A stretch of DNA of 45,225 nucleotides from Nitrospira sp. (GTDB taxonomy: Bacteria > Nitrospirota > Nitrospiria > Nitrospirales > Nitrospiraceae). This document shows positions 6,087-27,803 of this stretch, one piece after another. The stretch is taken from positions 1 through 45,225 of the forward strand of contig VGXF01000012.1 of assembly GCA_016873435.1 (NCBI GenBank), in the 5' to 3' direction. How positions within the stretch are numbered: position 1 is the first letter of the stretch; every line of letters starts with the position of its first letter. The translations under genes and the position numbers were made by a program. The notes under the pieces were generated by a model. That model was not told where the DNA came from and did no database searches. It worked only from the letters and a program-made list of their open reading frames with translations.

Positions 6087-7133
6087 ATGAAGCAGACACC
6101 TATCATCATGGCAGCATTGGCGACCATGCTGGTGACGTTTGGAGGCTACCCGCCCGGGTACGCCCAGACAGGATCCGGGAACCGGCAGATGGTACTCATC
6201 CCAAGTGGGGAATTCACGATGGGCAGCCTCGATCATGCGGATGAACCGCCCCATCAGGTTGTGCTGGACGCCTATAAGATCGACAAATTCGAGGTATCCA
6301 ACAAGCAATACGGGGAGTTCATGAAGGCCAAGAACCATCCGGCTCCAGCCTACTGGGATGATCCTCGCCTCAACAAGCCGGAACAGCCAGTGGTCGGCGT
6401 GAACTGGTACGACGCCAAAGCCTATTGCGAGTCCAATGGCCTGCGCCTGCCAACGGAAGCCGAGTGGGAACACGTTGCCAAGGGCCCCAAGGGCGACTAC
6501 CATTATCCGTGGGGGCACTCGTTCGATGCGAAAAAGGTAAACTACGGCCAACGGATTGGGAAAACGTCACCGGTTGATGCCCACCCCGAAGGCGCCAGCG
6601 GATTTGGCGTCTACAACATGGCTGGCAACGTATTCGAGTGGGTATCAGACTGGTACGCACCCGACTACTACAAAAAGAGCCCGGCGCTCAATCCAACGGG
6701 ACCCGACATCGGACTCGATTTCGCCAAGCAGGGGCCGGTCCGGGCCCTGCGCGGCGGATCCTGGCTTGCGCCGGAAACGTCACTGCATACCAGCCATCGC
6801 TTTTGGAACCAGCCCGACAACAACTCCTATGGCGTCGGACTTGGATTCCGTTGCGCGGTCTCGGAAGGCCCCCGCACGGCTAGTGACAAAGTCAGCGCGC
6901 CAACGAATGCCGGCTCCGCGGTGAATCCCAAAGCGGTGGTGAATTCCAAGGCGGTGGTGAATCCCAAGGTGGAAGCCCGCGAAGCCTACATGGAGGCGCT
7001 AATCGCCATGGGGGCAGAGAAGCAAGCGGAGGCCACAGCGCTGATCGACAAGGCCATTAAGCTCGATCCAAAAGTCCGTGAGTATAAGGATTTGCGCGAA
7101 CTGATCAAGAAAAACACTGACAAAAAGAAGTAG
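6087..7133 (+). CDS. Exported FGE-sulfatase (SUMF1-like) domain protein, copy 1
   Basis: Formylglycine-generating-enzyme-like fold in an exported protein of 348 residues. The signal peptide is followed by MVLIPSGEFTMGS, VGVNWYDAKAYC, LRLPTEAEWEHVAKG, YPWG, MAGNVFEWVSDWY, LRGGSW and YGVGLGFRCA, the classic order for this domain. The cysteine pair that oxidises the sulfatase in true FGE (after GGSW) is absent. The two remaining cysteines (AYC, FRC) correspond to the structural disulfide, so another function such as ligand or protein binding is likely. The C-terminal 60 residues form a TPR-like helical pair. The ATG at 6087 has AAGGGGG eight bases upstream, so I prefer it over the GTG at 6060. 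It is the first of three such proteins here. Confidence 0.88.
   Translation: MKQTPIIMAALATMLVTFGGYPPGYAQTGSGNRQMVLIPSGEFTMGSLDHADEPPHQVVLDAYKIDKFEVSNKQYGEFMKAKNHPAPAYWDDPRLNKPEQPVVGVNWYDAKAYCESNGLRLPTEAEWEHVAKGPKGDYHYPWGHSFDAKKVNYGQRIGKTSPVDAHPEGASGFGVYNMAGNVFEWVSDWYAPDYYKKSPALNPTGPDIGLDFAKQGPVRALRGGSWLAPETSLHTSHRFWNQPDNNSYGVGLGFRCAVSEGPRTASDKVSAPTNAGSAVNPKAVVNSKAVVNPKVEAREAYMEALIAMGAEKQAEATALIDKAIKLDPKVREYKDLRELIKKNTDKKK
6918..6968 (+). repeat. Short in-frame tandem repeat in FGE-like copy 1
   Basis: Three near-identical units (15, 18 and 18 bases; consensus GCGGTGGTGAATCCCAAG) encoding AVNPK, AVVNSK and AVVNPK. They form a linker between the FGE-like domain and the C-terminal helices. Unit number could vary between strains by slippage. 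Confidence 0.75.
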
Positions 7134-7144
7134 CGGGATCCCGT

Positions 7145-7163
7145 GGGGCAGGAGCGCTGCCCC
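7145..7163 (+). terminator. GC-rich hairpin between FGE-like copies 1 and 2
   Basis: Stem GGGGCAG/CTGCCCC (7 pairs) around a 5-base loop. No T-run follows, so it may be an attenuator or mRNA-stabilising hairpin instead of a true intrinsic terminator. A small palindrome CGGGATCCCG lies just before it. Confidence 0.35.
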
Positions 7164-7194
7164 CCCGCCTTCACAATTAATTAAGGGGACACTC

Positions 7195-8319
7195 ATGCGT
7201 ACAGCTTCGTATAGGACAATGGCGTTGACCGGAGCGATGGGGGCAATCCTGATGCTTACAACCGTGGCATCGGCCGCGGGACCGCAAGAACGTCAGCTGA
7301 TTTCGCCGTCACAGAAGGCGCCCGAGAGCCCTGCCGTGTCAGTGCCTACTGATATGGTCTATGTGCCCTGGGGCTCATTCACCATGGGCATGGACCGACC
7401 GCCGTCCAAAGCAGTCGCGGCTAAGCCGATGACCGCCCGCGAGCGGCTGACCAAACGCTCGTGGTCGGCCGAGGCCTTTTTTGACGAGGGGCCTGCGCAC
7501 ACGGTTGTTCTGGATTCATATTTCTTCGACAAGTTTGAGACCTCCAATGCCCTGTTTGGTGCATTCTTAAAGGCCACGGGCCACCCTGCCCCAGCCTATT
7601 GGGATGACCCGCGCTTGAACAGGCCGGAGCAGCCGGTGGTTGGCGTGAACTATAACGATGCCAAGGCCTTCTGTGAGTGGAAAGGCAAGCGGCTGCCTAC
7701 GGAAGCCGAGTGGGAAAAGGCGGCCCGTGGGCCCAAAGGGTACCGGTATCCTTGGGGCGACACTTTTGACGCGGCGAAGGCGAACTACGGGAAACAGCTC
7801 ACGAGCACCCTGCCCGTAGACTCGCTGCCTGAAGGCGAAAGTTTTTACGGCGCCCGGCATATGGCCGGTAACGTGTTTGAGTGGGTGGCGGACTGGTATC
7901 ATACTGATTATCTGCCCAGTATGACCGCAATGGCCAATCCGAAAGGGCCGGAGAAGGGCGCCTATATTGGGGCAACAGGGACATATATCGACCGCCTGGC
8001 AACCGGCGAAAAGCGCGTGATTCGCGGTGGATCCTGGATTGCCCCCCAGGGCAGCGTCACCACGACGCATCGCTTTTGGAATGACCAGATGAACAACAGC
8101 TATGGGGTCGGGCTCGGAGTTCGCTGCGCGCAGAACGCGCCCCAGGAGATTGACCAGCAGGTGCGGGAGGCACACGTGCGCACCTTGGTCAGCATGGGGA
8201 AGGAAGACTATGCGGCCGCCGGCCAGTCCTTGGCAGAAGGCCTGAAGCTGGATCCTACGAATGAGGACCTGCTACAGCTCCGCGAGCAGATCAGGAAAAC
8301 CGCCAGTGGATCTAAGTAA
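7195..8319 (+). CDS. Exported FGE-sulfatase domain protein, copy 2
   Basis: Paralogue of the preceding gene, 374 residues, with a signal peptide (cleavage near VASAAG). Shared blocks include HPAPAYWDDPRLN, PEQPVVGVN, KRLPTEAEWEKAARG, HMAGNVFEWVADWY, IRGGSW and SYGVGLGVRCA. A 35-residue insertion (about 65-100) separates the first strand block from the rest. As in copy 1, the catalytic cysteines of true FGE are lacking, and the last 50 residues look like a TPR-type helix pair (VREAHVRTLVSMGKEDYAAA). The start has AAGGGG six bases before the ATG. It is 61 bases downstream of copy 1 and very likely co-transcribed. I infer a tandem duplication because the similarity continues into the C-terminal helices. 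Confidence 0.88.
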   Translation: MRTASYRTMALTGAMGAILMLTTVASAAGPQERQLISPSQKAPESPAVSVPTDMVYVPWGSFTMGMDRPPSKAVAAKPMTARERLTKRSWSAEAFFDEGPAHTVVLDSYFFDKFETSNALFGAFLKATGHPAPAYWDDPRLNRPEQPVVGVNYNDAKAFCEWKGKRLPTEAEWEKAARGPKGYRYPWGDTFDAAKANYGKQLTSTLPVDSLPEGESFYGARHMAGNVFEWVADWYHTDYLPSMTAMANPKGPEKGAYIGATGTYIDRLATGEKRVIRGGSWIAPQGSVTTTHRFWNDQMNNSYGVGLGVRCAQNAPQEIDQQVREAHVRTLVSMGKEDYAAAGQSLAEGLKLDPTNEDLLQLREQIRKTASGSK

Positions 8320-8345
8320 GGCGCCTAGCTGTTAGGAGTGACGCC

Positions 8346-8732
8346 GTGCACACGCTCACAATATACAGACTGGCCGTGGGAGTGGTGTGCCTTGGCGCAG
8401 GGCTTTTTTGCCTGGCACCGTCGGCATTCGCTGACCCGGTTCTCAAGCCCGACAAGACGCTTCATTTTGAGGCCATCCAGAAAGTCCACGACGCCCAACA
8501 CGAAGTGGACCATGCCTGGGAAGTCTTTCACAAGGCCGCGCTTGGAGGCACCCTCTCCTCCCCGGCTATCCAGACGGATGTGGAGCAAGCCCTGCACGAA
8601 TCGCGCGGCTTGCTCGTCAAGGCACGCGAGGCGGCCAATGTCGATGACCAGAGCGCCTTGGAGTCAATTCTGAACCGCATTCACAAACTGACCGCACGAG
8701 CTATCACTGCAAGTCAGGAGCAGAAAAAATGA
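8346..8732 (+). CDS. Small exported helical protein, unknown function
   Basis: 128 residues starting at GTG, with AGGAG seven bases upstream. A signal peptide with cleavage near AFA/DP (about residue 30) is followed by three predicted amphipathic helices rich in His, Lys, Glu and Gln (KVHDAQHEVDHAWEVFHKAA, then LHESRGLLVKAREAAN). There are no cysteines in the mature part, and I recognise no family. It sits between FGE-like copies 2 and 3 and overlaps copy 3 by four bases (ATGA), so it is made together with them. A periplasmic partner or chaperone of the FGE-like proteins is conceivable, from position only. Confidence 0.75.
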   Translation: MHTLTIYRLAVGVVCLGAGLFCLAPSAFADPVLKPDKTLHFEAIQKVHDAQHEVDHAWEVFHKAALGGTLSSPAIQTDVEQALHESRGLLVKAREAANVDDQSALESILNRIHKLTARAITASQEQKK

Positions 8733-9532
8733 CGTGGTGTTCGCTGAGAATACTGTGCTGCGCGATCGCAGCCGGCGCGCTCCTGATATCCCTCCCCGCT
8801 CTGGAGGCGCGTGGGCCTGAGGAACATGATGCCGTGTCCATGGTGGTTGTGCCCGCCGGGCCTTTTCTCATGGGAAGCTCTGAAGGGCAGGGACGCGCGG
8901 ACGAGTGGCCGCAACGCACCGTGCATGTGGACGCCTTTGCCATCGACTCCGTTGAAGTCACTAACGCCAGGTTTCTGGCCTTCCTCGAAGCCACCGGTCA
9001 TCGCCCCCCCCCGAATCCGTACGGAGAGGGCTCGCTGACGTCCGCCAAGGGCATTGAGGACCTGCCAGTTGTCCAGGTGAACTGGCACGACGCCGCTGAC
9101 TACTGCCAGTGGGCTGGCAAGCGGCTGCCGACCGAGGCAGAATGGGAAAAGGCGGCCCGTGGTACGGACGGCCGCCGCTTTCCCTGGGGCAACGAGCCTC
9201 CTACCGGCAATCGCGTGAACTACGACCAGGAATGGAACGATGGAAAGGCTTTGCGCCCCGTTGGAACAACGCCGGGCGGCCAGTCACCGTACGGCGTGCA
9301 CGACATGGCTGGCAACGCCCGCGAGTGGATCCGGGACTGGTATGCGCAGGACTATTACAAGCAGGCACCCGACCGCAATCCCACGGGACCGGAAAACGCT
9401 GTCCTGAAGGTCATCCGTGGAGGATCCTGGCGGAGCCCACAGGCGGATATCACAGCGCCCTCTCGCGGCCGGGGTGGCTTTGCGCTTCGGACGCACGGCA
9501 CCGGCTTTCGCTGCGTCCGTGGCCCGGGCTAG
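8729..9532 (+). CDS. Exported FGE-sulfatase domain protein, copy 3
   Basis: 267 residues, the shortest of the local trio and without the C-terminal helices. The signal peptide (first about 28 residues) is followed by VVVPAGPFLMGSSEG, VVQVNWHDAADYCQWAGKRL, PTEAEWEKAARG, FPWGNE, YGVHDMAGNAREWIRDWY, IRGGSW and THGTGFRCVRG. The active-site cysteine pair of formylglycine-generating enzymes is missing (the region after GGSW reads RSPQADITAPSRGR), while AYC/FRC-equivalent cysteines remain. The ATG overlaps the previous stop by four bases, and AGGAG is correctly placed. Likely periplasmic. Could be a non-catalytic binding member of the family. Confidence 0.87.
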   Translation: MTWCSLRILCCAIAAGALLISLPALEARGPEEHDAVSMVVVPAGPFLMGSSEGQGRADEWPQRTVHVDAFAIDSVEVTNARFLAFLEATGHRPPPNPYGEGSLTSAKGIEDLPVVQVNWHDAADYCQWAGKRLPTEAEWEKAARGTDGRRFPWGNEPPTGNRVNYDQEWNDGKALRPVGTTPGGQSPYGVHDMAGNAREWIRDWYAQDYYKQAPDRNPTGPENAVLKVIRGGSWRSPQADITAPSRGRGGFALRTHGTGFRCVRGPG

Positions 9533-11647: not shown

Positions 11648-12075
11648 CAACCCCACAACACCAGCCATCCGGACGAGACATCAAGACCTTGGGAGGCCTC
11701 TTTCTGATCGTCGGCACGATGGACATGGTGATCATCGCCTGGTATCCCGACTACGCGCTGAAAATTTTCGGCACCTCGCTGTCCGGCACGGCCGGCTACC
11801 TGGTTAAACTCCAGTCGCCCATTGTGCATTTTCTGATCGGGTACGGTTTCCTGTTCCTCCGGCCTTGGGCCTGGGGCCTGAGCCTGGCCTATGCCGGGTT
11901 CGGCATCGCCAGCGAATGTCTCAACCAGTATGTGCTCGGATTTAGCGTCATCCGGTCCTCGTTCATACTGACGACGCTCGCCTTCATCGGCTATCTGGTC
12001 TGGCGGCGCGCGGTATTTGACGGCCCTCCACTCCTCTCGGATAAACGCCTATCGCCGTTCAGGAAGTCCTGCTGA
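11644..12075 (+). CDS. Small integral membrane protein, first gene of the photolyase operon
   Basis: 143 residues with four hydrophobic segments (about 13-31, 42-66, 70-90, 98-118). The likely start is the ATG at 11644 (MTTPQHQPSGRDIKTLGGLF), after AGGAAA, because the upstream extension has no membrane or protein-like character. I recognise no family beyond a generic four-helix membrane protein; transmembrane region FLIVGTMDMVIIAWYPDY has two acidic residues. The stop overlaps the photolyase start by one base (TGATG), so the two are translationally coupled, which hints at a membrane role in the same response. Confidence 0.7.
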   Translation: MTTPQHQPSGRDIKTLGGLFLIVGTMDMVIIAWYPDYALKIFGTSLSGTAGYLVKLQSPIVHFLIGYGFLFLRPWAWGLSLAYAGFGIASECLNQYVLGFSVIRSSFILTTLAFIGYLVWRRAVFDGPPLLSDKRLSPFRKSC

Positions 12076-13490
12076 TGCGCGGTCTCGTCTGGTTTCGAAG
12101 GGATTTGCGCGTGCACGACCATCCGGCGCTGACCACCGCCCTGGCCGAGTGTAAGGAGGTGCTCCCGCTGTTCGTGTTTGACGCCCCGCTGCTGCAGTCG
12201 CAGACGTTTGGTGCGCCCTGCGTGAATTTCTTGCTGGGGTGCCTGAAGGAGCTCGGTGATGAGTTGGACGCACGCGGGTTGCGGCTCACCTGGCGACGGG
12301 GCGATCCGGTCGAGGCAGTCGTAAAGATGGCGCGCGATGCGCGGGTTGATGTCGTGTACTGGAACCGGGATTACGAACCCTCCGCCGTCGAGCGCGACCA
12401 GGCGGTCACTCAGGCACTCGCAGCCTTTCGAATCCCCGCCCGCACCTTCAAGGATCACGTCGTGTTCGAAGCCGGCGAGATTCTCTCCGGCGCCGGTACA
12501 CCCCTGCAGCGCTACGGCGCCTATCGCACACGATGGTGGGCGCAGTGGCACGCGGCGGCTCCAGCTGTCCTTCCGCCACCCGCGCGGCGGGCCCGGCCCG
12601 GCATCAAGACCCTGCTCGAGCTGCCGACACCTGATGAACTGGGCTACGCCCTGTTGCCACCGTCTTTTTCTGCCGGCGAGACCGCGGCCCGGCGCCGGCT
12701 GAGGTGGTTTCTCAACGGCCCGATCAAGGACTATGCGATCGGGCGCAACCGTCCTGCCATGGACGGCACGTCAACGCTCTCGCCACACTTTCGGTTCGGC
12801 ACGCTTTCAGCCAAGAGCGCGGTACATACCGCGCTGGCTGTAGGGGCTGCTCGCGACGCCACTTGGAGGACTGGCATCAGGACCTGGGTGGACGAACTGG
12901 TCTGGCGGGATTTTTTCCAGCAGATTGTGGCGTCGTTCCCGCGCGTGGCCAACCGTTCGTTCCGCCCCAATACGGACGCGCCGCGGCCGCGCAAAGATGC
13001 CCGGTTGCTCAAAGCCTGGCAGGAGGGCCGCACCGGGTTCCCGCTCGTGGATGCCGGCATGCGGCAATTAAACCGAACCGGCTGGATGCACAACCGCGTG
13101 CGTATGGTCGTCGCGTCGTTTCTCGTGAAAGACCTGCGGCTCGATTGGCGGCAGGGCGAACGGTATTTCATGAAGCATTTGCTCGACGCCGACCTGGCGG
13201 CCAACAACGGCAACTGGCAATGGTGTGCCTCCACCGGCACCGACGCCATGCCTAGCTACCGGATCTTCAATCCCACGCTTCAGGCGAAAAAATTTGATCC
13301 CGATGGCGACTACATCCGCACCCACGTGCCGGAGTTGCGATCGCTGCCGACCAAACTGATCCACCAGCCGGAGATCATGTCCGCCGACGACCAGGACCGG
13401 TACAACTGCCGACTTGACCACGATTACCCCAGGCCCGTTGTGGATCATGCCCGCGCTCGCAACGAATACCTGCTTGGAACCCACCGGTAG
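12075..13490 (+). CDS. phrB: Deoxyribodipyrimidine photolyase (class I CPD type)
   Basis: Light-driven flavoenzyme that splits UV-induced pyrimidine dimers in DNA. 471 residues: an N-terminal antenna-chromophore domain (GLVWFRRDLRVHDHPAL, residues 3-19) and a C-terminal FAD domain with TGWMHNRVRMVVASFLVKDL (335-354) and DADLAANNGNWQW (371-383). Asn378 in the NNG motif indicates CPD repair, and cryptochromes often differ there. Tryptophans 315, 358 and 381 occupy the positions of the electron-transfer triad. The start overlaps the previous stop by one base. The next gene begins 43 bases after the stop, in the order seen reversed in E. coli (ybgA-phr). Confidence 0.95.
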   Translation: MRGLVWFRRDLRVHDHPALTTALAECKEVLPLFVFDAPLLQSQTFGAPCVNFLLGCLKELGDELDARGLRLTWRRGDPVEAVVKMARDARVDVVYWNRDYEPSAVERDQAVTQALAAFRIPARTFKDHVVFEAGEILSGAGTPLQRYGAYRTRWWAQWHAAAPAVLPPPARRARPGIKTLLELPTPDELGYALLPPSFSAGETAARRRLRWFLNGPIKDYAIGRNRPAMDGTSTLSPHFRFGTLSAKSAVHTALAVGAARDATWRTGIRTWVDELVWRDFFQQIVASFPRVANRSFRPNTDAPRPRKDARLLKAWQEGRTGFPLVDAGMRQLNRTGWMHNRVRMVVASFLVKDLRLDWRQGERYFMKHLLDADLAANNGNWQWCASTGTDAMPSYRIFNPTLQAKKFDPDGDYIRTHVPELRSLPTKLIHQPEIMSADDQDRYNCRLDHDYPRPVVDHARARNEYLLGTHR

Positions 13491-13533
13491 CCCCGCCTTG
13501 ACTCCCGATTCCGTCTCCAGCGCTGGCCCCCCT

Positions 13534-14490
13534 ATGGTCGACAAGACAAAGCTACGCCTTGGGATCAGTCGCTGTCTCTTAGGGGACCACGTCCGTTTCG
13601 ATGGCGGACACAAGCGGGATGCGTTTCTCACTGACGTACTCGGCCAGTTTGTCGACTGGGTGCCGGTATGTCCGGAAGTCGAAGCCGGGCTGGGGACCCC
13701 CCGCGAAGCCATGCGGCTCGTCGTCCACGAAGAAGGGCCGCGCCTCATCACGATCAAGCACGGCACGGACCACACACAGACCATGACACGCTTTTCTGAA
13801 CAGCGCGTGCACAACCTCGAGGCCCTAGATCTCTCCGGCTACGTGTTCAAGAAAGATTCACCGAGTTGCGGGATCGAGCGGGTCCGCCTCTACGATCCGC
13901 ACGGCATACCGGCGCGAAACGGTGTTGGGCTGTTCGCACGGGCGTTCATGGAACGATTCCCGCTCATCCCGGTTGAGGAGGAAGGCCGGCTCAATGATTC
14001 CGTGCTGCGCGAGAACTTCATCGTACGAATGTTCTGCTACCGTCGATGGCGCGACCTCACAGCCAGCCGCGTGACGCGTGGGGCTGTTGTGGCCTTTCAC
14101 ACCGCCCACAAGTATCTCTTGCTGGCGCACAGCCGGCCGCACTACGAAACGCTCGGACGGCTGGTCGCCAGTGCCAAGCAGTACATTCCCACTGACCTAG
14201 CCTGCCGTTACGGAGTGCAATTCATGAAAGCACTGGACGTCAAGGCCACGGTCCGGAAACACACTGACGTTCTGCATCACCTCATCGGCCATTTGACCGA
14301 CAAGCTGGAGGTGGCGGAACGGCGCGAACTACTGGAAGTCATCGACGACTATCACAGGAGACTGACGCCCCTGATCGTGCCAATCACGCTGATCAAGCAT
14401 TACGTGAATCGGTTCGGCATCGAGTACCTGCAGCAGCAGGTCTATCTGAATCCCCATCCCAAGGAACTCATGCTGCGCAACCATGTATGA
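13534..14490 (+). CDS. DUF523 (TudS-like) plus DUF1722 fusion, YbgA family
   Basis: 318 residues in two domains. Residues about 6-150 are DUF523, with the three cysteines that in the TudS thiouracil desulfurase hold a [4Fe-4S] cluster: SRCLLG (Cys14), VCPE (Cys46) and SPSCG (Cys112). Residues about 195-310 are DUF1722 (AHKYLLLAHS, then LVASAKQYIPTDLACRY). E. coli YbgA has the DUF1722 part and is encoded next to photolyase. A thio-base repair or salvage role, for example on 4-thiouridine products formed by near-UV, is inference. I use the ATG at 13534, where family similarity starts; a longer frame would extend back into the photolyase gene. Confidence 0.85.
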   Translation: MVDKTKLRLGISRCLLGDHVRFDGGHKRDAFLTDVLGQFVDWVPVCPEVEAGLGTPREAMRLVVHEEGPRLITIKHGTDHTQTMTRFSEQRVHNLEALDLSGYVFKKDSPSCGIERVRLYDPHGIPARNGVGLFARAFMERFPLIPVEEEGRLNDSVLRENFIVRMFCYRRWRDLTASRVTRGAVVAFHTAHKYLLLAHSRPHYETLGRLVASAKQYIPTDLACRYGVQFMKALDVKATVRKHTDVLHHLIGHLTDKLEVAERRELLEVIDDYHRRLTPLIVPITLIKHYVNRFGIEYLQQQVYLNPHPKELMLRNHV

Positions 14491-15089
14491 ACGGCGAGGG
14501 TAAGACAGGAACCATGGCACATCGGCCTGCGCGATATGCGGTAATCTCGGCGCTGGTCCTGGCGGGGCTGGCTGTTCCCGCACTCCCCCGCGCCGCGGAG
14601 ATCGAGGGCGTCCATTTCGCCGACCGTACGCAGGCCGGTCCGGCGGCGCTGGTCTTGAAAAACCTTGGCCTCGCTCGCTATCTTTTCTTGAAGGTGTATG
14701 TGACCGCATTGTATGTGGGCGATGGCATCCCGGCGGATAGGGTACTGGCCGATGTACCAAAACGGCTGGAACTGTCCTATTTCCAGAGCATCAAGGCCGG
14801 CGACTTCACGACGGCCGCGGATCAAGTCTTGCCGGACAATGTTCCCGCCGCCAATATCGCCGCACTGCGCCCAAAGATCGACCGGCTCCACGCGCTGTAC
14901 AGAGATATCAAGCCCGGCGACCGCTATGCCCTCACCTACCTGCCGGGGGTTGGCACGGAATTAGCCCTGAATGGAACGCCGCTGGGAACGGTTGAAGGTG
15001 CCGACTTTGCGGCGGCCTATTTTGCCATCTGGCTGGGTCCCAAACCGATCAGCGAGTCGCTCAAATCACAGTTATTGAAGACGCCATGA
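14487..15089 (+). CDS. Exported chalcone-isomerase-like protein
   Basis: 200 residues with an N-terminal signal sequence (about 17-37, ending PRAAE), followed by the bacterial chalcone-isomerase-like fold: FADRTQAGPAALVLKNLGLA, then RYLFLKVYVTALYVG. Bacterial relatives have no flavonoid substrate and are thought to bind fatty acids or other hydrophobic ligands in the periplasm. The frame starts ATGA, overlapping the previous stop by four bases. A second ATG at 14514, after ACAGGA, would give a 191-residue form with a more typical signal peptide, and I cannot decide between them. Its position just before a desaturase supports a lipid-linked job. Confidence 0.82.
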   Translation: MNGEGKTGTMAHRPARYAVISALVLAGLAVPALPRAAEIEGVHFADRTQAGPAALVLKNLGLARYLFLKVYVTALYVGDGIPADRVLADVPKRLELSYFQSIKAGDFTTAADQVLPDNVPAANIAALRPKIDRLHALYRDIKPGDRYALTYLPGVGTELALNGTPLGTVEGADFAAAYFAIWLGPKPISESLKSQLLKTP

Positions 15090-16063
15090 TGCCATTGCCC
15101 CCAAACCGAGCTACCTCGCCGAAATCGCACGACGTTCTCGTCTCGCTCGTGCGTTGGTTCGACGCCTGGGCCGGCGTAGAAGATATTCGTGAGACCGATC
15201 CCCAGCAGGTGGACTGGAGCCGCGTCGTTCCCTTCGTCGTCCTACACCTGATGTGCCTGGGGGTGATCTGGGTGGGCTGGAGTTGGACGGCCGTTGGAAC
15301 TGCCGCCGCGCTCTACGCTGCCCGCATGTTCGCCATCACCGGTTTTTACCACCGGTTTTTTTCCCACCGAGCCTTCAAAACCTCCCGCTGGTGCCAGCTT
15401 GCCTTTGCGATCCTCGGGGCTTCCGCCGTTCAGCGGGGTCCGCTCTGGTGGGCGGCGCATCACCGGCACCATCACCGCCATTCCGACCAAGCAGCCGACA
15501 TCCACTCGCCGCACCAGCACGGCCTGCTGTGGAGCCACATGGGATGGATCACCTCGCGCCCGAATTTCGTGACGAAGCGGAGGCTAGTACCCGACCTCGA
15601 TCTCTATCCCGAGCTGCGCTTTCTGGACCGGTTCGACGTTGCAGTGCCCGTCGCTTTAGCAGTTGGGCTTTACGCCCTTGGTGCCTGGCTGGCCATCCGC
15701 GCTCCGCACCTGGGCACCAGCGGCGCGCAGTTGCTGATCTGGGGCTTTTTCGTGTCGACGGTTGCGCTCTTCCACGGCACGAATACGATTAACTCGCTGG
15801 CCCACCGGTTTGGCTCACGGCGGTACGAGACGCCCGACGACAGTCGGAACAATCCCTGGCTAGCGCTGCTCACGTTCGGTGAAGGCTGGCACAACAACCA
15901 CCACCACTATCCGGCCTCCGCTCGCCAGGGATTCTATTGGTGGGAGATTGACCTGACCTATTATGGGCTGGTGATCATGTCGTGGCTGGGTCTGATCTGG
16001 GACCTCAAGACCGTACCCACGCGTGTGCGACGAGATGAAACTGGATCGGAGGTGACTGCATGA
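15086..16063 (+). CDS. Membrane fatty acid desaturase (acyl-CoA delta-9 type)
   Basis: Di-iron integral membrane desaturase that puts a cis double bond into an acyl chain using oxygen. The three histidine boxes are intact: HRFFSHR (89-95), HHRHHH (125-130) and EGWHNNHHHY (266-275). A fourth His-containing segment is HGTNTINSLAH. Four to five hydrophobic segments fit the usual topology, and 325 residues is the length of the stearoyl-CoA desaturase group. The actual position of the bond is not readable. It overlaps the genes on both sides by four bases. Within the operon it would provide the unsaturated substrate for the CFA-like methyltransferase. Confidence 0.92.
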   Translation: MMPLPPNRATSPKSHDVLVSLVRWFDAWAGVEDIRETDPQQVDWSRVVPFVVLHLMCLGVIWVGWSWTAVGTAAALYAARMFAITGFYHRFFSHRAFKTSRWCQLAFAILGASAVQRGPLWWAAHHRHHHRHSDQAADIHSPHQHGLLWSHMGWITSRPNFVTKRRLVPDLDLYPELRFLDRFDVAVPVALAVGLYALGAWLAIRAPHLGTSGAQLLIWGFFVSTVALFHGTNTINSLAHRFGSRRYETPDDSRNNPWLALLTFGEGWHNNHHHYPASARQGFYWWEIDLTYYGLVIMSWLGLIWDLKTVPTRVRRDETGSEVTA

Positions 16064-16476
16064 GCCAGCAGGTGGAATTGTTCAAATCTACCTTCAACAG
16101 TCTGACCAGCGCGAATATGGCTCTACTTGATAATCTTTATGCCAGCAACGTCGTGTTCGCTGATCCGTTTCACCACATCGCGGGACTGACGGCCCTACGG
16201 GCCTACTTCTTGCGGCAATACGAAGGCGTCATCCGCTGCACCTTCACGTTCGAGGAACAGGTCGTGCAGCGCGGGACGGCCATGCTGACCTGGACCATGC
16301 ACCTGGAGCATGCAAGGATTTCAAAGGGAGAGACGATCCATCTACCCGGGGCCTCGCACATCCGGTTTACCGACAAGGTGACGTACCATCGCGACTATTT
16401 TGATGCCGGCGAGTTTCTGTATGAGCGGTTGCCGGTCGTGGGCGGGCTCATACGGGCCATCAAGGGTCGCCTCTGA
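16060..16476 (+). CDS. SnoaL/NTF2-like small protein
   Basis: 138 residues with the pattern of a cone-shaped NTF2-like fold: FKSTFNSLTSANMALLDNLY, then VVFADPFHHIAGLTALRAYF, then VTYHRDYFDAGEFLYERLPV. Many relatives (SnoaL-like, often annotated nuclear transport factor 2 family) are isomerases or cyclases acting on small hydrophobic molecules, and others only bind ligands. The HRDYFDAG motif is usual in the type found beside SDR and FAD-oxidase genes. GGAGG precedes the ATG by 7 bases. It overlaps its neighbours by four bases and one base. Confidence 0.8.
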   Translation: MSQQVELFKSTFNSLTSANMALLDNLYASNVVFADPFHHIAGLTALRAYFLRQYEGVIRCTFTFEEQVVQRGTAMLTWTMHLEHARISKGETIHLPGASHIRFTDKVTYHRDYFDAGEFLYERLPVVGGLIRAIKGRL

Positions 16477-17246
16477 TGAACCGGTCCTATTTCACAGACC
16501 GACGTATCTGGATCACCGGCGCCTCGAGCGGCATTGGACGCGCCGTGGCACTTGAGTTGGACCGACGCGGGGCGATCATCATCGCGTCCGCCCGCAGTCA
16601 GGACGGTCTGAAGCAGTTGGCGAGGGACGCCGGCAGCGGCCGCGTGCACTCGCTGTCACTGGATGTGACCGACCGCCAGGCCACGTTGGCCGCGGCTCAG
16701 ACGATCCAGCAGGAAGTGGGCGGACTGGATATTGCCTTCTTCAACGCCGGCACCTGCGAGTATGTGGACGTCGCCCGCTTTGACAGCGCGATGTTTGAAC
16801 GGGTCCTGCAAACCAACTTCTTAGGCATGGTCTATGGCATCGAAGCGGCTCTACCGTTGCTGCGGCGTTCGGCGCATCCGCACCTTGTCGGTATGAGCAG
16901 CACTGTGGCCTATGGCGGCCTGCCCCGCGCGGAGGCCTACGGCGCTTCCAAGGCGGCCATCAAGCACATGCTCGAATCGCTGCGCATTGACCTCGTGCAG
17001 GACCACATTCCAGTCTCGATCATCTGCCCGGGGTTTGTGGAAACCCCGCTCACGGATCGCAACGATTTTCCCATGCCCTTCGCCATCAGCGCGGATCTCG
17101 CCGCACGCTATATCGCTGACGGCATCGCCGCACAGACGCATGAGATTCATTTTCCCAAGCGCTTCAGCCTGGCATTTAAGCTGCTGGCCCTCCTGCCCAG
17201 CCGGCTTTACACGGCTGTCGGCTCGAAAATGGTCAAGTCAGCATGA
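16476..17246 (+). CDS. Short-chain dehydrogenase/reductase
   Basis: Classical NAD(P)-dependent SDR, 256 residues. The cofactor motif is TGASSGIG (14-21), the NAG block is FFNAGT, and the catalytic group is Ser141/142, Tyr155 and Lys159 (EAYGASKAA). The C-terminal LAFKLLALLPSRLYTAVGSK is hydrophobic and basic and may attach to the membrane, as in family members that act on lipids. Substrate unknown. It overlaps the preceding gene by one base and the following one by four. SDRs of this kind are regularly found with the FAD protein and DUF1365 that follow. Confidence 0.9.
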   Translation: MNRSYFTDRRIWITGASSGIGRAVALELDRRGAIIIASARSQDGLKQLARDAGSGRVHSLSLDVTDRQATLAAAQTIQQEVGGLDIAFFNAGTCEYVDVARFDSAMFERVLQTNFLGMVYGIEAALPLLRRSAHPHLVGMSSTVAYGGLPRAEAYGASKAAIKHMLESLRIDLVQDHIPVSIICPGFVETPLTDRNDFPMPFAISADLAARYIADGIAAQTHEIHFPKRFSLAFKLLALLPSRLYTAVGSKMVKSA

Positions 17247-18490
17247 AGATTGCCGTCGTCGGCACTGGCATTGCGGGAATGGTTGCGGCCTACCTGCTTC
17301 ACCAGGAGCACGAGATCACGGTCTTTGAGGCGAACGATTACATCGGCGGCCACACCAACACGATTGACGTTGAGCAGGACGGCTCGACCTACGCCGTGGA
17401 TACCGGTTTCATCGTCTACAACGACTGGACCTATCCCCATTTCGTCGCGCTCCTGGCCAAACTCGGTATCGCCTCCCAACCCAGCACCATGAGCTTTAGC
17501 GTCAAAGACGACGCGAGCGGACTGGAATACAACGGCACGACCCTCAATACACTCTTTGCGCAGCGGCGCAATCTACTTCGCCCGTCATTTTACCGGATGA
17601 TCACCGACATCCTGAGATTTAACCGTGAGGCGCGGGCGCTGCTCGACGCCGGCGACGACACGACGACCCTGCACGAGTACCTGACCGCCAATCGCTATTC
17701 GGCGGAATTTAGAGAGCACTACATCATCCCGATGGGGGCCGCCATCTGGTCCACCGATCCCGTCCAAATGGGGAATTTTCCCGCCCGCTACTTCGTCCGC
17801 TTTTTTGACAACCACGGCATGCTCAGCGTCGACAACCGTCCCCAATGGCGCGTCGTCCAGGGTGGCTCCAAACAATACGTGGAGGCACTGACCCGGCCTT
17901 ACCGTTCGCGCATTCGCCTGTGCTGTCCCGTCCGTTCCATTCGACGATTTCCCGACCATGTGGCCGTCGGGACGGCGGACGGCCGGGAGCGGTTCGATCA
18001 GGTCATCATGGCCACCCACAGCGATCAGGCCCTGGCGCTGCTGGCTGACCCAACCGGCGCGGAGCGCGACATTCTCGGGGCCATCCGCTTTCAGGCCAAC
18101 GAGGCAGTGTTGCACATGGACCGATCCCTGCTGCCAAAGCGTCGTCTGGCCTGGGCCAGTTGGAACTATCACCTCTCCAACAAACTGGCTAACCGGGTCG
18201 CCGTAACCTATCACATGAACACCTTGCAGAACCTTCGTGCGCCCCGCGAATTTTGCGTGACCCTGAATCGATCAGAGGCCATCGATCCGGCAGCCATCAT
18301 CAAGCGGATCACCTACCATCACCCGGTCTACACGCGCGAAGCGGTGGCCGCGCAACGGCGGCACGCGGAGATCAACGGCGTGCAGCGTACCTATTATTGC
18401 GGCGCCTATTGGAACTATGGCTTCCACGAGGATGGCGTGAAGAGCGCCTTGGCCGTCTGCGGACACTTCGGGAAGGGCTTGGACTCGTGA
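17243..18490 (+). CDS. FAD-dependent amine-oxidase-like protein (NAD/FAD-binding)
   Basis: 415 residues with an N-terminal FAD motif [15 protein letters not shown] (5-19) and the following GGHTNTIDV block, typical of the flavin amine oxidase/phytoene desaturase superfamily. [15 protein letters not shown] and [12 protein letters not shown] are hallmarks of the subgroup encoded next to DUF1365 and CFA-like genes. It could dehydrogenate or isomerise a modified acyl chain; the true substrate is unknown. It overlaps the SDR gene by four bases and the DUF1365 gene by four bases (GTGA). No signal peptide, so it is cytosolic or at the membrane face. Confidence 0.88.
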
Positions 18491-19275
18491 AGAGCGGCAT
18501 CTACGAAGGCCTGGTCCGGCACCGCCGCTTTGCCCCCGCGCGGCACTCGTTCCAATATAAGATCTTCATGATGTATCTGGACCTGGACGAATTGCCGACG
18601 CTCTTTGATCGGCACTGGTTTTGGTCGGACCGACGGTTCAACCTGGCCTGGTTTCGCCGCAAGGACCATTACGGCAATCCGGGCATCCCGCTCGCACAGG
18701 CGATCCGCGACCTGGTCGAGGAACGCACCGGGGTGCGCCCGCGCGGCCCCATCCGCCTGCTCACCCACCTGCGCTACTTTGGCTACTGCTTCAACCCCGT
18801 CAGTTTCTATTACTGCTTTGATACAACCGCCCAACAGGTGGATACGATCGTCGCCGAAGTGCACAACACGCCTTGGGGCGAGCAGCACTGCTACGTCCTC
18901 GATCAAACCCGCAACGAAGGACACGGGACACACAAGCGCTTCCGGTTCGACAAGCAGTTCCACGTCTCGCCCTTTATGGACATGGATGTCCGCTATGACT
19001 GGCGGTTCATCGAGCCGCGCGCGCAGCTCGCCGTGCACATGGACAACCTCAACGGGACAGGTAAGTTTTTTGACGCGACGATGGCCCTGGCCCGCCGCGA
19101 GCTCAGCACCGTCGCCCTTGCCCGAGTACTGCTGCGGTATCCCCTGATGACCCTCCAGGTCATCGCGGGCATCCACTGGCAGGCCCTGTCCCTCTGGCTC
19201 AAACGATGTCCTGTCTACGGCCATCCTTGGAAAAAGAAAGCGGCGCCCACGGCAACGGCGCCGGGAAAAGCATGA
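18487..19275 (+). CDS. DUF1365 protein
   Basis: 262 residues starting at a GTG that overlaps the previous stop (GTGA) and reads [20 protein letters not shown], which is the usual DUF1365 N-terminus. A longer upstream frame exists only as a shadow of the FAD gene. Diagnostic blocks are [20 protein letters not shown] and [16 protein letters not shown], with conserved aromatic and cysteine residues. Function is unknown, but the gene is nearly always coupled to the FAD protein and CFA-like methyltransferase, as here (four-base overlaps on both sides), so it is probably part of one lipid-modifying step. A possible membrane-associated segment lies near the C-terminus ([20 protein letters not shown]). 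Confidence 0.9.
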
Positions 19276-20564
19276 GCCGTTCGTCCACGACCACGGCATC
19301 CCGGTCCGCGCGAACGGCCGCACCGGGCTGGTTCGACCGGCTGGCGCGCGCTGCAGTCCATGCCAGACTTCGCGGCCTGCGACAGGGACGCCTCACCATC
19401 ATCGAGGGCGATGCGCCATTGACCTTTGGCGCCCCCTCCGCCAGTACATCGCACTGCGCCACAATCACAATCCTTGATCCCTCGTGCTATGGCGACATCG
19501 CCTTCGGCGGGAGCATCGGCGCCGGCGAGACCTACATGCTCGGGCTCTGGCTCTGCGACGACCTCACGGCCCTCGTCCGGATCTTTGTGGCCAACCGGAA
19601 CGTGATGGACGAGATGGAAACTGGTCTGGCCCGGTTGACGGCCCCCCTGCGCAAGCTGGGGCACTGGGTAAACCGCAACACAAAATCGGGTAGCCGGCGC
19701 AACATCGCTGCGCATTACGACCTCGGCAACGATTTCTTCTCGCTCGTCCTGGACGACACAATGATGTATTCCTGCGCCATCTTCGAACGGCCAGATGTTC
19801 CCCTCCGCGACGCCTCCATTGCAAAAAACGATCTCATCTGCCGTAAGCTCGATCTTTTACCAACAGATCATCTGCTCGAGATCGGGACGGGCTGGGGCGG
19901 CTTCGCCATTCATGCTGCCGCCCGCTACGGCTGTCGGGTGACCACGACAACCATCTCGCAGCAGCAGTACGACCTGGCTGTGCGGCGGATCGCCGAGGCG
20001 GGGCTCTCGGACCGTATTACGGTGATCCAGCGGGACTACCGCGACCTACGGGGGCTGGGCCTGCAGTTTGACAAGATTGTCTCCATCGAGATGATCGAGG
20101 CGGTCGGCCACGCGTACTACGATACCTATTTCGCCTGCTGCAGCGACCTACTGAAACCGGACGGCCGGGTGCTCATCCAGGCCATCACAATCGATGACCG
20201 CCAGTATGACCGCGCGAGGCGCTCCGTGGATTTCATCCAGCGGTTTATCTTCCCGGGCAGCTGTATCCCCTCCGTCACAGCCCTGTGCCAGTCCATCGCG
20301 CGGGCTTCCGAGCTACGGCTCTTCGGGCTGGAGGACATCGGGGCTCATTACCCGCCGACCCTACGGGGCTGGAGAGCGCACCTCGTCGCCAATACAGCCC
20401 GGCTGCGCGAGCTGGGCTATTCCGACGCCTTCATCCGCCTGTGGGAGTTCTATCTCTGCTACTGCGAAGGCGGGTTTCTGGAACGGGCCATCAGTGACGT
20501 GCATTTGGTGCTGACCAAGCCATTAGCCAGGCCGATCCACAACACATGCCGCGTGACATGCTGA
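19272..20564 (+). CDS. cfa: Cyclopropane-fatty-acyl-phospholipid synthase-like methyltransferase
   Basis: SAM-dependent enzyme that adds a one-carbon unit across the double bond of a phospholipid acyl chain. 430 residues: an N-terminal lipid-binding domain, [20 protein letters not shown] (148-167), the SAM motif [11 protein letters not shown] (201-211) and the C-terminal [10 protein letters not shown] (397-406), whose Cys398 matches the conserved CFA cysteine. Related enzymes make cyclopropane rings, methylene branches or the methyl group of furan fatty acids, and sequence alone does not tell these apart. I start at the ATG overlapping the DUF1365 stop (ATGA). The longer frame back to 19206 is a shadow. 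Confidence 0.92.
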
Positions 20565-21088
20565 AAAATCTTGCCAATGTTGTTACCTTCCAAGCCGGCT
20601 GGTTCACGTGCGTATTGGGGGCTGCCACCGATCATGGCTGGGCAGGACCGCTTGCCTGCATCATTTATCTCGCCTCACATTTGTGGCACCTACCGGACCC
20701 TGCCCGTTATCTGCGTTTCTGCACCGTCGTGGGGTTCCTGGGCTTGGCGATTGATTCGACACTGGGCGCATTCGGCATTATTACCTTTCACGCTTCACCA
20801 TTGCCCGGCTGGGTCTGCCCTCCGTGGCTGACTGCGCTCTGGATGATGTTTGCCGGCACATTACCTCTCTCCCTCAACTGGCTGACTGAACGGCCGAGAT
20901 TGGCCGCTCTGCTCGGCGCGCTGGGTGGGCCGGCCAGCTACTATGCTGGCGCATCGCTTGGCGCTATCGATCTTTATAACCCTTCCGTCACAAGCCTGCT
21001 GATTCTGGCCGTTGTCTGGGGTATCCTCATGCCGGCGCTGCTGCGCCTGAAGAATAGGATGGGACTGCAGACGTTGCCTGCTTCATGA
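20546..21088 (+). CDS. DUF2878 membrane protein
   Basis: 180 residues with about five transmembrane segments (LANVVTFQAGWFTCVLGAAT, then the regions near 30-50, 55-78, 88-108 and 148-168). The opening NVVTFQAGWFTCVLG and PPWLTALWMMFAGTLP are typical of DUF2878. Function unknown. It is a standard partner of the DUF1365/CFA-like group in other bacteria and so presumably a membrane component of the same process. The start overlaps the CFA-like gene by 19 bases. An alternative ATG at 20558 would shorten the overlap to 7. It overlaps the following gene by four bases. Confidence 0.82.
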   Translation: MPRDMLKNLANVVTFQAGWFTCVLGAATDHGWAGPLACIIYLASHLWHLPDPARYLRFCTVVGFLGLAIDSTLGAFGIITFHASPLPGWVCPPWLTALWMMFAGTLPLSLNWLTERPRLAALLGALGGPASYYAGASLGAIDLYNPSVTSLLILAVVWGILMPALLRLKNRMGLQTLPAS

Positions 21089-21879
21089 CCTCATCCAACC
21101 CGCCGCTGATCATTCTGGGGACCGGCTATACGGGCCGCGTGCTGTTCCGGCAGGCGCGAGCCGGGGGCCGCATTGTCTTCGCCGCCAGCCGCCACCCGGA
21201 GAACCATTTAACGGGCATTCCGCCCGAGCAGCGCCTCCGGTTCGATTTCCATGACGAGCGCACCTGGCGCGCGCTTCCCGCGCAGGCCGATGCGGTCCTA
21301 ACCTTTCCCCCCGTGCCGCCGGACACCGCCTGCGCCTTCGGCAAGCAGGTCCTCCCGCGCCTGCGTCAACTGGTCGTGCTCGGCTCCACATCTGCGTATG
21401 ACGGCTCGCCGCAGGCCATACGCGGCGACATTGTGGAGGAAACCGCTCCGGTGGACCGCTCCATCGCCCGTGTGCAAAGCGAGGAGCTGCTGCGCGAGCA
21501 GTATGGGGCGATCGTGCTGCGCGTGGCCGGCATCTACGGCCCAGGCCGCAACCCGCTCGACTGGATCCGGCAGGGCCGTGTTGGGTACTCAAACCGCTTC
21601 GTCAATCTGATCCACATCGACGATCTGGCTGCCATTATTATGACTGTGCTCGAACGCGGACAGCCGGGGGAGCCCTACAATGTCAGTGACGGCACACCGC
21701 GCCGCTGGTCGGAGATCATGGACACAGCCGCCGCGCGCTGGGGTACGCCGAAACCGCTGCCCGCGGATCCGACTCCGGGCAAGCGGATCAGCAATAGAAA
21801 ATTGCTCGACGCCTTGCGGTATACTGTCAGGCATCCGGATCTCTTTGCAGCGCTAGACGAACTGGAGATTGCACGCTAA
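21085..21879 (+). CDS. NAD(P)-dependent epimerase/dehydratase-like protein
   Basis: 264 residues, extended SDR fold with an unusual glycine motif LGTGYTGRVLF (11-21) in place of GGxGxxG, the VVLGSTSAYDGS serine block, and RVAGIYGPGRNPLD. The usual YxxxK catalytic pair is not evident, so it may be an atypical or non-catalytic member, similar to YeeZ-type proteins. Substrate unknown. It overlaps DUF2878 by four bases and CbiX by one base. It shares the epimerase superfamily with the TIGR01777 gene at 9.6-10.5 kb but is not a close copy. Confidence 0.82.
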   Translation: MTSSNPPLIILGTGYTGRVLFRQARAGGRIVFAASRHPENHLTGIPPEQRLRFDFHDERTWRALPAQADAVLTFPPVPPDTACAFGKQVLPRLRQLVVLGSTSAYDGSPQAIRGDIVEETAPVDRSIARVQSEELLREQYGAIVLRVAGIYGPGRNPLDWIRQGRVGYSNRFVNLIHIDDLAAIIMTVLERGQPGEPYNVSDGTPRRWSEIMDTAAARWGTPKPLPADPTPGKRISNRKLLDALRYTVRHPDLFAALDELEIAR

Positions 21880-22397
21880 TGCGCGCAGTGGTGCTGATCG
21901 GACATGGCGGCGTCCCGAAGGACTGCCCGCACGAGCTGGTACGGAAGCTCAAGCAACTGGAAGCACAGCGGCGCGCCGCCGGCATACCCATGTCGAATGA
22001 AGAGCGTGAGTTGGATCAGCAGATTCGACGCTGGCCGCGCACGCCGAAGAACGATCCGTATAAAGTTGGCCTGGAATCCCTCGCTGACCAACTCCGTTTG
22101 CTGTTGAAGCCCGACAAGCTCGCCATTGCCTACAACGAATTCTGTGCGCCGACGCTTGAGGAAGCCGTCGAAGATTTAATCAAGGACGGCATCAGGGACA
22201 TCACGGTGATCTCGTCCATGTTCACCGCTGGCGGTTCGCACGCCGAGGTCGAGATTCCGGAAATTGTTGCCGACCTGAAACGGATTCATCCGAACGCGAC
22301 GATCCGCTACGCCTGGCCCTTCGACCAGAAGCTCGTGGCCACCATGATGGCTACGCACCTGAAGCAGTTTGCGCCACAAACCCCGAACAAGCTTTAG
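21879..22397 (+). CDS. CbiX/SirB-like chelatase-family protein
   Basis: 172 residues of the CbiX (sirohydrochlorin cobalt/iron chelatase) superfamily: VVLIGHGGVPKDCP at the N-terminus, with the metal-site histidine, and later VISSMFTAGGSHAEVEIPEI, which holds the second histidine. Single-domain members insert Co or Fe into sirohydrochlorin or are of unknown specificity. Residues 35-70, rich in charge, are an insertion compared with short CbiX proteins. It is the last gene of the operon, with a one-base overlap to the epimerase. Its stop codon overlaps the stop of the convergent gene, with no terminator between. Confidence 0.8.
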   Translation: MRAVVLIGHGGVPKDCPHELVRKLKQLEAQRRAAGIPMSNEERELDQQIRRWPRTPKNDPYKVGLESLADQLRLLLKPDKLAIAYNEFCAPTLEEAVEDLIKDGIRDITVISSMFTAGGSHAEVEIPEIVADLKRIHPNATIRYAWPFDQKLVATMMATHLKQFAPQTPNKL

Positions 22398-26137: not shown

Positions 26138-26207
26138 GTGAGGCGTGCAGGGTGCGGCGTAAAGGGAAGTGGCCGCTTCCTCTGGCGCCTTTCGTTGTAC
26201 GCCTCAC
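26138..26207. repeat. Nested palindromic element between the IPT/TIG and carboxylase genes
   Basis: Outer perfect arms GTGAGGCGT (26138-26146) and ACGCCTCAC (26199-26207), inside which GGAAG/CTTCC also pair. The word ACGCCTCAC recurs at 37513-37521. It would fold strongly as RNA and could end the upstream transcript, although no T-run follows. No gene is seen in 26131-26307 apart from the meaningless upstream extension of the carboxylase frame. Confidence 0.5.
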
Positions 26208-26307
26208 ACCCCTCTGCTCCGTCCCTCGACACCATCGAATCCCCTGTGCTACCTTACTCAGACTTTTTGGGCCTAAGGCCGCACCTCTGAGGGAGCTAAA
26301 CTCCGCG

Positions 26308-27726
26308 ATGTTTAAGAAGATTCTCGTGGCCAACCGAGGCGAAATCGCCATGCGCGTCATTCGCGCCTGCCGCGAACTCAACATCGCCACCGCCGCCATC
26401 TATTCCGACGCCGATCCCACGGGCATCTACGTCAAAAAAGCCGACGAATCCCATCTGGTTGGCCCCGGCCCTGTGAAGGGTTTTCTGGATGGCCCGCAGA
26501 TCGTCGATCTGGCCAAACGTATCAGTGCCGACGCGATCCACCCGGGTTACGGCTTTCTCTCCGAGAACGCCGCCTTCGCACGCCTCTGCCAGGCTTCCGA
26601 TATCACGTTCATCGGCCCCTCGCCGAAGGCCATCCAGTTAATGGGCGACAAGATTCAAGCGCGCAATCTCGCACAGCAGGTCGGTGTGCCGATTGTCCCG
26701 GGCACGGAGCGGGGCGTGACCAACGTCGATGACGCACTGGCCTTCGCAAAAACTGCGGGCTACCCGATCATGATCAAAGCCGCCGCGGGCGGTGGCGGAC
26801 GCGGGCTGCGCGTTGCGCGCTCCGATCAGGAACTGCGCACGAACATGGATGTTGCGTCGCGCGAAGCGCAGGCCGCCTTTGGCGACGGCAGCGTGTTTCT
26901 CGAAAAATACATCGAACGGCCGCATCACATCGAGTTCCAGATTCTTGCGGACAAGTACGGACACATCGTCCATCTCGGCGAGCGCGACTGCTCTATCCAG
27001 CGTCGCCATCAAAAATTGATTGAACTTGCTCCGTCGCTGGTTCTCACGCCGCAACTGCGGGCGAAGATGGGCGAGGACGCCACGAAGATCGCCAGAGCGG
27101 TGGACTACGACAACGCGGGCACGGTGGAATTTCTGCTCGATCAGACGGGCCAGCACTATTTTATTGAGATGAATCCGCGCATCCAGGTCGAGCACACGAT
27201 CACTGAGCAGATCACCGCCGTGGATATCGTCCGCGCGCAGATCACGATTGCCGCGGGCAAGCCGCTGGAGATCACGCAGAAGGACGTCACGCTGCAGGGC
27301 CATGCGATCCAGTGCCGCATCAACGCCGAGGACCCGCGAAATAATTTTCGCCCTGCCACCGGCAAGGTCACGGCCTACCTCTCGCCGGGCGGCATCGGCA
27401 TCCGCATCGACGGCGCGGTCTACAAGGACTACGTCGTGCCGCCCTACTACGACGGCCTGTTGGCCAAGCTCACCGTCCGCGGCCGTACGTGGGAGGAGAC
27501 CGTCAGCCGCATGCGCCGTGCGCTTGAGGAATATGTCCTGCGCGGGCTCAAGACGACAATTCCTTTCATGGAGCGGATCATGCAGGAGCCGGACTTCCTC
27601 GCTGGCAAGTTCGACACGTCGTATCTAGACACACATCCGGACGTGTTCAATTACGACGACCATGTGGAGCCGGAAGATCTGGTACTGGCGATCTCCGCCT
27701 CGATTGCCGCCTACGAGGGACTGTGA
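26308..27726 (+). CDS. pycA: Pyruvate carboxylase subunit A (biotin carboxylase)
   Basis: ATP-grasp enzyme that carboxylates biotin with bicarbonate. 472 residues: MFKKILVANRGEIAMRVIRA at the start, a glycine-rich ATP loop AAGGGGRGLRVA, HHIEFQILADKYG and EMNPRIQVEHTITEQI, the signature of biotin carboxylases. The frame is open back to 26152, but homology begins at the ATG at 26308. GGGAG lies 12 bases upstream. The next gene supplies the carboxyltransferase and biotin carrier, so together they form a two-subunit (archaeal-type) pyruvate carboxylase that makes oxaloacetate. It could equally be the biotin carboxylase of acetyl-CoA carboxylase (accC), but the neighbour argues for pyruvate. Confidence 0.88.
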   Translation: MFKKILVANRGEIAMRVIRACRELNIATAAIYSDADPTGIYVKKADESHLVGPGPVKGFLDGPQIVDLAKRISADAIHPGYGFLSENAAFARLCQASDITFIGPSPKAIQLMGDKIQARNLAQQVGVPIVPGTERGVTNVDDALAFAKTAGYPIMIKAAAGGGGRGLRVARSDQELRTNMDVASREAQAAFGDGSVFLEKYIERPHHIEFQILADKYGHIVHLGERDCSIQRRHQKLIELAPSLVLTPQLRAKMGEDATKIARAVDYDNAGTVEFLLDQTGQHYFIEMNPRIQVEHTITEQITAVDIVRAQITIAAGKPLEITQKDVTLQGHAIQCRINAEDPRNNFRPATGKVTAYLSPGGIGIRIDGAVYKDYVVPPYYDGLLAKLTVRGRTWEETVSRMRRALEEYVLRGLKTTIPFMERIMQEPDFLAGKFDTSYLDTHPDVFNYDDHVEPEDLVLAISASIAAYEGL

Positions 27727-27803
27727 GTCGCGATGCGCGCTTAATCATGACGTACTGACCGGCACTTCATCGTTCACCAGTCATACTACAGACGGCGGGA
27801 TAT

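Follow-up and report, generated by a model that had tools for sequence, protein, structure and literature searches.

The DNA analysed here, referred to as the window (45,225 nucleotides of contig VGXF01000012.1 from a Nitrospira sp., family Nitrospiraceae), carries a plus-strand operon in which a membrane acyl desaturase (FAdes) is combined with homologues of the furan fatty acid genes ufaD, ufaO and ufaM, and which probably serves to protect against photo-oxidative stress by building a methyl-furan fatty acid on the chains of membrane phospholipids. Furan fatty acids are oxidant-scavenging lipids. A first-pass annotation of the same DNA had pointed to a set consisting of a desaturase, an S-adenosylmethionine (SAM) methyltransferase, a flavin adenine dinucleotide (FAD) oxidoreductase and a short-chain dehydrogenase/reductase (SDR) at 15086-20564, and had proposed methyl-branched, furan or cyclopropane acids as its products. 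The set itself was confirmed by Pfam matches and by the coupling of the genes on the plus strand. As to the products, homology, the order of the genes, the clade of the methyltransferase and its active-site residues now back the furan option, the methyl-branched chain is retained only as the expected unsaturated intermediate, and the cyclopropane option is disfavoured; DUF1365, the family of ufaO, had been brought in only within a proposed test. The core consists of six genes, with neighbours overlapping by 1-4 nt:

15086..16063, plus strand: FAdes, SCD/DesC-type membrane acyl desaturase (PF00487, FA_desaturase, E = 3.2e-22)
16060..16476, plus strand: SnoaL/NTF2-like protein (PF12680, SnoaL_2, 8e-14; 41% identical to the Aeromonas NTF2-like protein)
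16476..17246, plus strand: SDR oxidoreductase of the RSP1087 type (PF00106, adh_short, 1e-41; 43% identical to the SDR of the Aeromonas cluster)
17243..18490, plus strand: ufaD homologue, predicted FAD-dependent acyl-chain desaturase, with GxGxxG at residue 7 (PF01593, Amino_oxidase, 1.4e-28)
18487..19275, plus strand: ufaO homologue (DUF1365), predicted O2-using furan-forming enzyme, with a GTG start (PF07103, 1.9e-91)
19272..20564, plus strand: ufaM homologue, predicted SAM-dependent acyl-chain C-methyltransferase (PF02353, CMAS, 3.8e-80)

In R. sphaeroides and R. palustris, methyl-furan fatty acids are built on phospholipid chains by UfaM, a SAM methylase resembling cyclopropane fatty acid (CFA) synthase, UfaD, an NAD/FAD-binding protein resembling phytoene desaturase, and UfaO, a DUF1365 protein (PMC7380195). 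The genes are found at RSP2144 (ufaM), RSP1091 (ufaD) and RSP1090 (ufaO) in the former, and contiguously, as ufaD-ufaO-ufaM, at RPA2571-2569 in the latter; the activity of UfaD was demonstrated in vitro, UfaO was both necessary and sufficient for furan formation, and the ring oxygen comes from O2 (PMC7380195). A Halomonas ufaM expressed in E. coli gave rise to an intermediate of the furan pathway (PMC12089945).

The window trio belongs to these three families and follows the R. palustris order. Against the annotated plasmid clusters of Aeromonas, Legionella, Azospirillum and Rhizobium, identities are 54, 44, 45 and 42% for ufaD and 42, 41, 38 and 35% for ufaO; the conserved residues of the ufaO homologue are seen in the alignment, and the conserved core of UfaD and UfaO is retained. 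In each of the 32 Nitrospiraceae clusters of the survey (the window counted) the three genes are contiguous, as they are in the Aeromonas, Legionella, Rhizobium and Acinetobacter records, a recurrence that is far beyond chance. Across the family, DUF1365 is present in 43 of 175 genomes and in 6 of 22 genera. A single-sequence structure model of UfaO was discarded at a mean pLDDT (predicted local distance difference test) of 36, and viral contigs yielded no relatives with which its alignment could be deepened.

The methyltransferase is 41-50% identical to the ufaM of the plasmid clusters; with E. coli Cfa it shares 37% identity, and with BfaB-type enzymes 29-34%. A phylogeny against UfaM, BfaB and CFA synthase, as the first-pass annotation had suggested, was computed as a maximum-likelihood tree of 37 CFA-like proteins (METHYLTRANSFERASE), with the experimentally tested UfaM sequences not among its rows, and in this tree the window protein groups with 10 Nitrospiraceae relatives and the UfaM of Aeromonas, Legionella and Rhizobium (support 99/97), separately from E. 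coli Cfa, the BfaB-type proteins and three other Nitrospiraceae classes. The bicarbonate site of cyclopropane synthase comprises C139, E239, H266, I268 and Y317 in the numbering of E. coli Cfa. C139, E239, I268 and Y317 are retained in the window protein, and His266 is replaced by Gln (Gln303, DNA 20178) and the neighbouring His240 by Ala (Ala277, DNA 20100). The A240/Q266 pair is found in all 14 UfaM-type rows, and H/H in E. coli Cfa, the BfaB-type rows and classes B and D; the class A rows have His240 throughout and His266 in all except one. Published work chose 10-methyl enzymes by conservation of the bicarbonate site, and set them apart from M. tuberculosis ufaA1 (PMC7791843). These results speak against cyclopropane products and also against BfaB-type methyl-branched ones. 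That the gene encodes a normal cyclopropane fatty acid synthase whose neighbours have nothing to do with it is very improbable: its closest named models are indeed CFA synthases, and it has the 37% identity to E. coli Cfa, but every model score falls under the curated cut-off, both histidines are lost, the tree places the protein with UfaM, and the partnership with ufaD-ufaO is fixed in every cluster of the survey.

A second, divergent CMAS protein, 26-27% identical to ufaM, was seen in 14 of the 32 clusters (L074, L075, L079, L080, L082, L161 and others), together with DUF2878, DUF1295, DUF6134 and a lipocalin; it shares ~50% identity with the second methyltransferase carried by an Acinetobacter plasmid. 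This second CMAS could be a FufM-like dimethyl-furan enzyme; the identity between FufM and UfaM is 26% (PMC7380195).

The pairing of a desaturase with ufaDOM is the unusual part of the operon. The histidine boxes of FAdes (HRFFSH, HHRHHH and HNNHHH) conform to the HX4H, HX2HH, HX2HH pattern, and the protein matches the structure of mouse SCD1 (4ymk, 1.4e-25), placing it in the SCD-like fold family. The window genome has three desaturases, FAdes included. A fabA-type gene was sought there and none found, so double bonds probably come from O2-dependent desaturases. FAdes is joined to ufaDOM in 3 of the 32 Nitrospiraceae clusters (the window, G198 and G176), several clusters being cut by contig ends; it stands between Chalcone_3 and SnoaL in the window and G198, and immediately before ufaD in G176. 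Seven Acinetobacter plasmids carry a 53-54% identical desaturase ~3.2 kb from ufaM, and in the two of these loci that were read it lies directly ahead of ufaD-ufaO-ufaM. In a desaturase tree, the Ufa-linked proteins do not resolve as one common subfamily, and the G198 desaturase is nearly identical to one in G018, a genome without DUF1365. This distribution suggests, without proving, that a desaturase was recruited repeatedly beside ufaDOM, as would be expected if it feeds UfaM. The Acinetobacter plasmid loci L157 and L158 combine desaturase-ufaD-ufaO-ufaM with a lipocalin and a sensor kinase/response regulator, and L158 with a photolyase, and form a candidate mobile furan fatty acid cluster.

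In the proposed pathway, FAdes would act on a saturated chain, and the resulting cis double bond would be the substrate for the UfaM homologue, which would methylate it with SAM to give an 11-methyl-Delta12-trans chain. The UfaD homologue would then dehydrogenate this to a methyl-diene, and the UfaO homologue would add an O2-derived oxygen and close the furan ring. The UfaM, UfaD and UfaO steps were shown with the R. sphaeroides and R. palustris enzymes (PMC7380195), and we infer them for the window genes by homology. With 16:1 cis-11, a common acid in Nitrospira, as the substrate, the pathway would lead to 10,13-epoxy-11-methyl-C16, or 9-(3-methyl-5-propylfuran-2-yl)nonanoic acid. The furan acid is probably of chain length C16. 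The SDR, which had been listed among the enzymes needed, is probably dispensable for the chemistry: RSP1087 is the SDR of the R. sphaeroides operon (PMC5507510), and the deletion of RSP1087-1089 left the fatty acids of that organism unchanged (PMC7380195).

The operon extends beyond the core in both directions, as a coupled run (12075-22397) from the photolyase to a terminal open reading frame (ORF), with each junction overlapping by 1-77 nt. It resides in a genome of 1.72 Mb at 98.5% completeness, well below the size of most similarly complete family members. One genome of its family has match coordinates identical to those of the N. defluvii metagenome-assembled genome NOB1 (G064 and G200), which places the window in the Nitrospira family, under a genus label of its own. 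The flanking genes are:

12075..13490, plus strand: phr, class I photolyase (NCBIfam 1.4e-122, under the curated cut-off; 8-HDF-type models score best)
13489..14490, plus strand: RudS-type TudS(DUF523)-DUF1722 fusion, predicted tRNA 4-thiouridine (s4U) desulfidase (Pfam 5.7e-41 and 1e-38); the start codon is uncertain, as the ORF opens at 13414 with TTG, overlapping phr by 77 nt
14487..15089, plus strand: chalcone isomerase-like protein (Chalcone_3, PF16036, 6e-37), with a counterpart in the Aeromonas cluster
20546..21088, plus strand: DUF2878 membrane protein (PF11086, 7e-44), shared with the clusters of Aeromonas and Legionella and found in 28 of the 32 Nitrospiraceae ones
21085..21879, plus strand: translationally coupled NAD-dependent epimerase-like gene (PF01370, 6e-6), of uncertain operon membership and seen in none of the other surveyed Nitrospiraceae clusters
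21879..22397: further ORF, similar to a protein of a sister cluster that Pfam assigns to CbiX

The photolyase and RudS fit a light-stress operon, in which the former would handle light-damaged DNA and the latter the photosensitive tRNA base s4U. A photolyase occupies the equivalent place in 25 of the 32 Nitrospiraceae clusters, several of the remaining 7 being cut by contig ends, and genes of the RudS family, whose function is tRNA s4U desulfidation, are frequently found within light-responsive operons (PMC11417400). On the Aeromonas plasmid p1 the order is RudS-MerR-phrB-NTF2-SDR-ufaD-ufaO-ufaM-DUF2878-(small gene)-chalcone isomerase. In P. syringae, PSPTO_1119-1116 encode an SDR, a flavin amine oxidase, an RSP1090 homologue and cfa, with phrB two loci upstream (PMC5507510); the window gene string matches PSPTO_1118-1116 for the trio and PSPTO_1119-1116 with the SDR. 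The blue-light MerR/ChrR response of V. cholerae takes in a CFA-like gene (PMC5241685), and the Rhizobium and Azospirillum clusters have genes for an extracytoplasmic function (ECF) sigma factor and ChrR near ufaD-ufaO. About 8 kb from the operon, at 353-3916 on the minus strand, genes for protoporphyrinogen oxidase (PPOX), ferrochelatase and hemE were recognised by eye, and a PPOX-like gene is likewise near CFA and desaturase genes in L083 and L138.

The degradation of ChrR under singlet oxygen requires RSP1090 and RSP1091 (PMC3818230), and it might be supposed that UfaD and UfaO in the window are mainly singlet-oxygen signalling proteins, or that the pathway ends at the methylated unsaturated or diene chain. 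Either seems improbable, as the window genome has no ChrR match, and the enzymatic roles established for UfaD and UfaO (see above) go with a conserved core that the window proteins retain.

Another alternative is a methyl-branched route, in which the CFA-like enzyme methylates 16:1 and the FAD protein or the SDR reduces the product to 11-methyl-16:0, the acid to which the first-pass annotation had linked the locus. The chemistry of UfaM does pass via an 11-methyl chain (PMC7380195), and 11-methyl-16:0 is given as a major acid and marker for N. moscoviensis ('++'), N. bockiana and N. calida, without being listed for N. defluvii (PMC3660363, Table 3). However, a search of the N. moscoviensis genome found neither DUF1365 nor a BfaA-like gene, and the CFA-like genes there, three in number, all fall outside the UfaM clade, whereas a ufa cluster is present in the N. 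defluvii metagenome-assembled genome NOB1, and in the complete genome G045 too. The acid is thus not a listed marker for a species with the cluster and is abundant in one without it; clusters of the window type therefore fail to account for this marker, and the link to 11-methyl-16:0 is contradicted. Moreover, the FAD oxidoreductase, although present as annotated, is of the Amino_oxidase/phytoene-desaturase (UfaD-like) type and not a BfaA-like reductase, a type that is absent from the window genome. The methyl-branched route is therefore unlikely.

A better candidate for methyl-branched acids, where present, is a separate operon, FA_desaturase - CFA-like - FAD_binding_4 (BfaA-like), which was found at L065-L072 (e.g., L072:5545-8976; the desaturase is non-adjacent in L068). 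The BfaA-like FAD_binding_4 gene occurs in 26 of 175 Nitrospiraceae genomes and its product is 45-50% identical to plasmid proteins; the matched Tsukamurella plasmid gene lies with a methyltransferase in a recR/Rv3717-like setting, which we take to be the BfaA-BfaB locus. As the source of 11-methyl-16:0 in all Nitrospira this operon fails, since N. moscoviensis is without the BfaA-like gene. N. defluvii, which has the ufa cluster, carries no BfaA-like gene either. In that species, FA_desaturase, a divergent CMAS-like gene and a class A CMAS adjoin at L134:8674-12029, a candidate source of the acid; no reductase was recognised among the listed neighbours.

Several observations weigh against the assignment of the operon to furan acid synthesis in light defence. 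Furan acids do not appear in the Nitrospira lipid profiles consulted (PMC3660363), for which the cultures were not described as singlet-oxygen stressed. The homology to the experimentally tested Ufa enzymes runs via annotated relatives and published locus tables, not via direct alignment, and FAdes may serve general lipids. The known light and singlet-oxygen switches were not found in the window genome: a search for ChrR (Cupin_7) gave no match, and there is no MerR of LitR size, the sole MerR gene being short and located elsewhere. A gene like the Aeromonas MerR was found neither in the window nor in the neighbourhoods of the Nitrospiraceae clusters, and a scan for R. sphaeroides-type sigma-E promoters gave no convincing site ahead of the operon. 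RpoE/ChrR control is usual in the alphaproteobacterial ufa systems, without being strictly defining.

A handful of C16 marker acids usually serves to type nitrite oxidisers and comammox bacteria. No paper on furan fatty acid genes in Nitrospira was found in the open-access literature. The wider proposal, that Nitrospira-family bacteria make C16 furan acids and that the light-defence operon of this lineage encodes every step between a saturated chain and the furan, through an O2-dependent desaturase recruited beside ufaDOM, apparently more than once and in different bacteria, is offered tentatively, at slightly less than even odds. If true, furan acids formed on induction would add a new lipid class to the family and would suggest a membrane defence against singlet oxygen. 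The desaturase-ufaDOM unit would be a compact set of genes with which a chosen host could be made to produce furan acids from saturated chains, and, with the furan locus told apart from the BfaA-type operon, the origin of 11-methyl-hexadecanoic acid becomes directly testable.

Elsewhere in the window, inspection by eye revealed four proteins resembling formylglycine-generating enzyme (SUMF-type; 6060-9532 and 37518-38339), two of them with C-terminal repeats that look like tetratricopeptide repeats, and separate biotin carboxylase and carboxyltransferase/biotin-carrier subunits (26152-29705), as in two-subunit pyruvate carboxylase.

Compared with known systems, the window shares with the UfaM-UfaD-UfaO pathway the three families and the R. 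palustris gene order, but it comes from another phylum, has a desaturase within the operon and no ChrR found, and would likely act on C16 rather than C18 chains. With the proteobacterial light cluster (P. syringae PSPTO_1121-1116, Aeromonas p1) it has in common phrB, RudS (Aeromonas), the NTF2-like protein, SDR, ufaD, ufaO, ufaM, DUF2878 and the chalcone isomerase-like protein; it adds FAdes, and has neither a MerR nor an ECF regulator within the operon or next to it. The BfaA-BfaB operon for 10-methyl fatty acids likewise pairs a CFA-like methyltransferase with a flavoprotein, but there BfaA is of the FAD_binding_4 type, the bicarbonate-site residues are kept and DUF1365 is missing, whereas the FAD partner in the window is of the Amino_oxidase type. 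The Acinetobacter plasmid cluster (p1AsACE, pXMC5X702-195k) shares the acyl-CoA desaturase (53% identical to FAdes) directly upstream of ufaD-ufaO-ufaM; the plasmids also carry a lipocalin and DUF1295, and p1AsACE a second methyltransferase, all lacking in the window, and the placement of FAdes relative to SnoaL and SDR differs.

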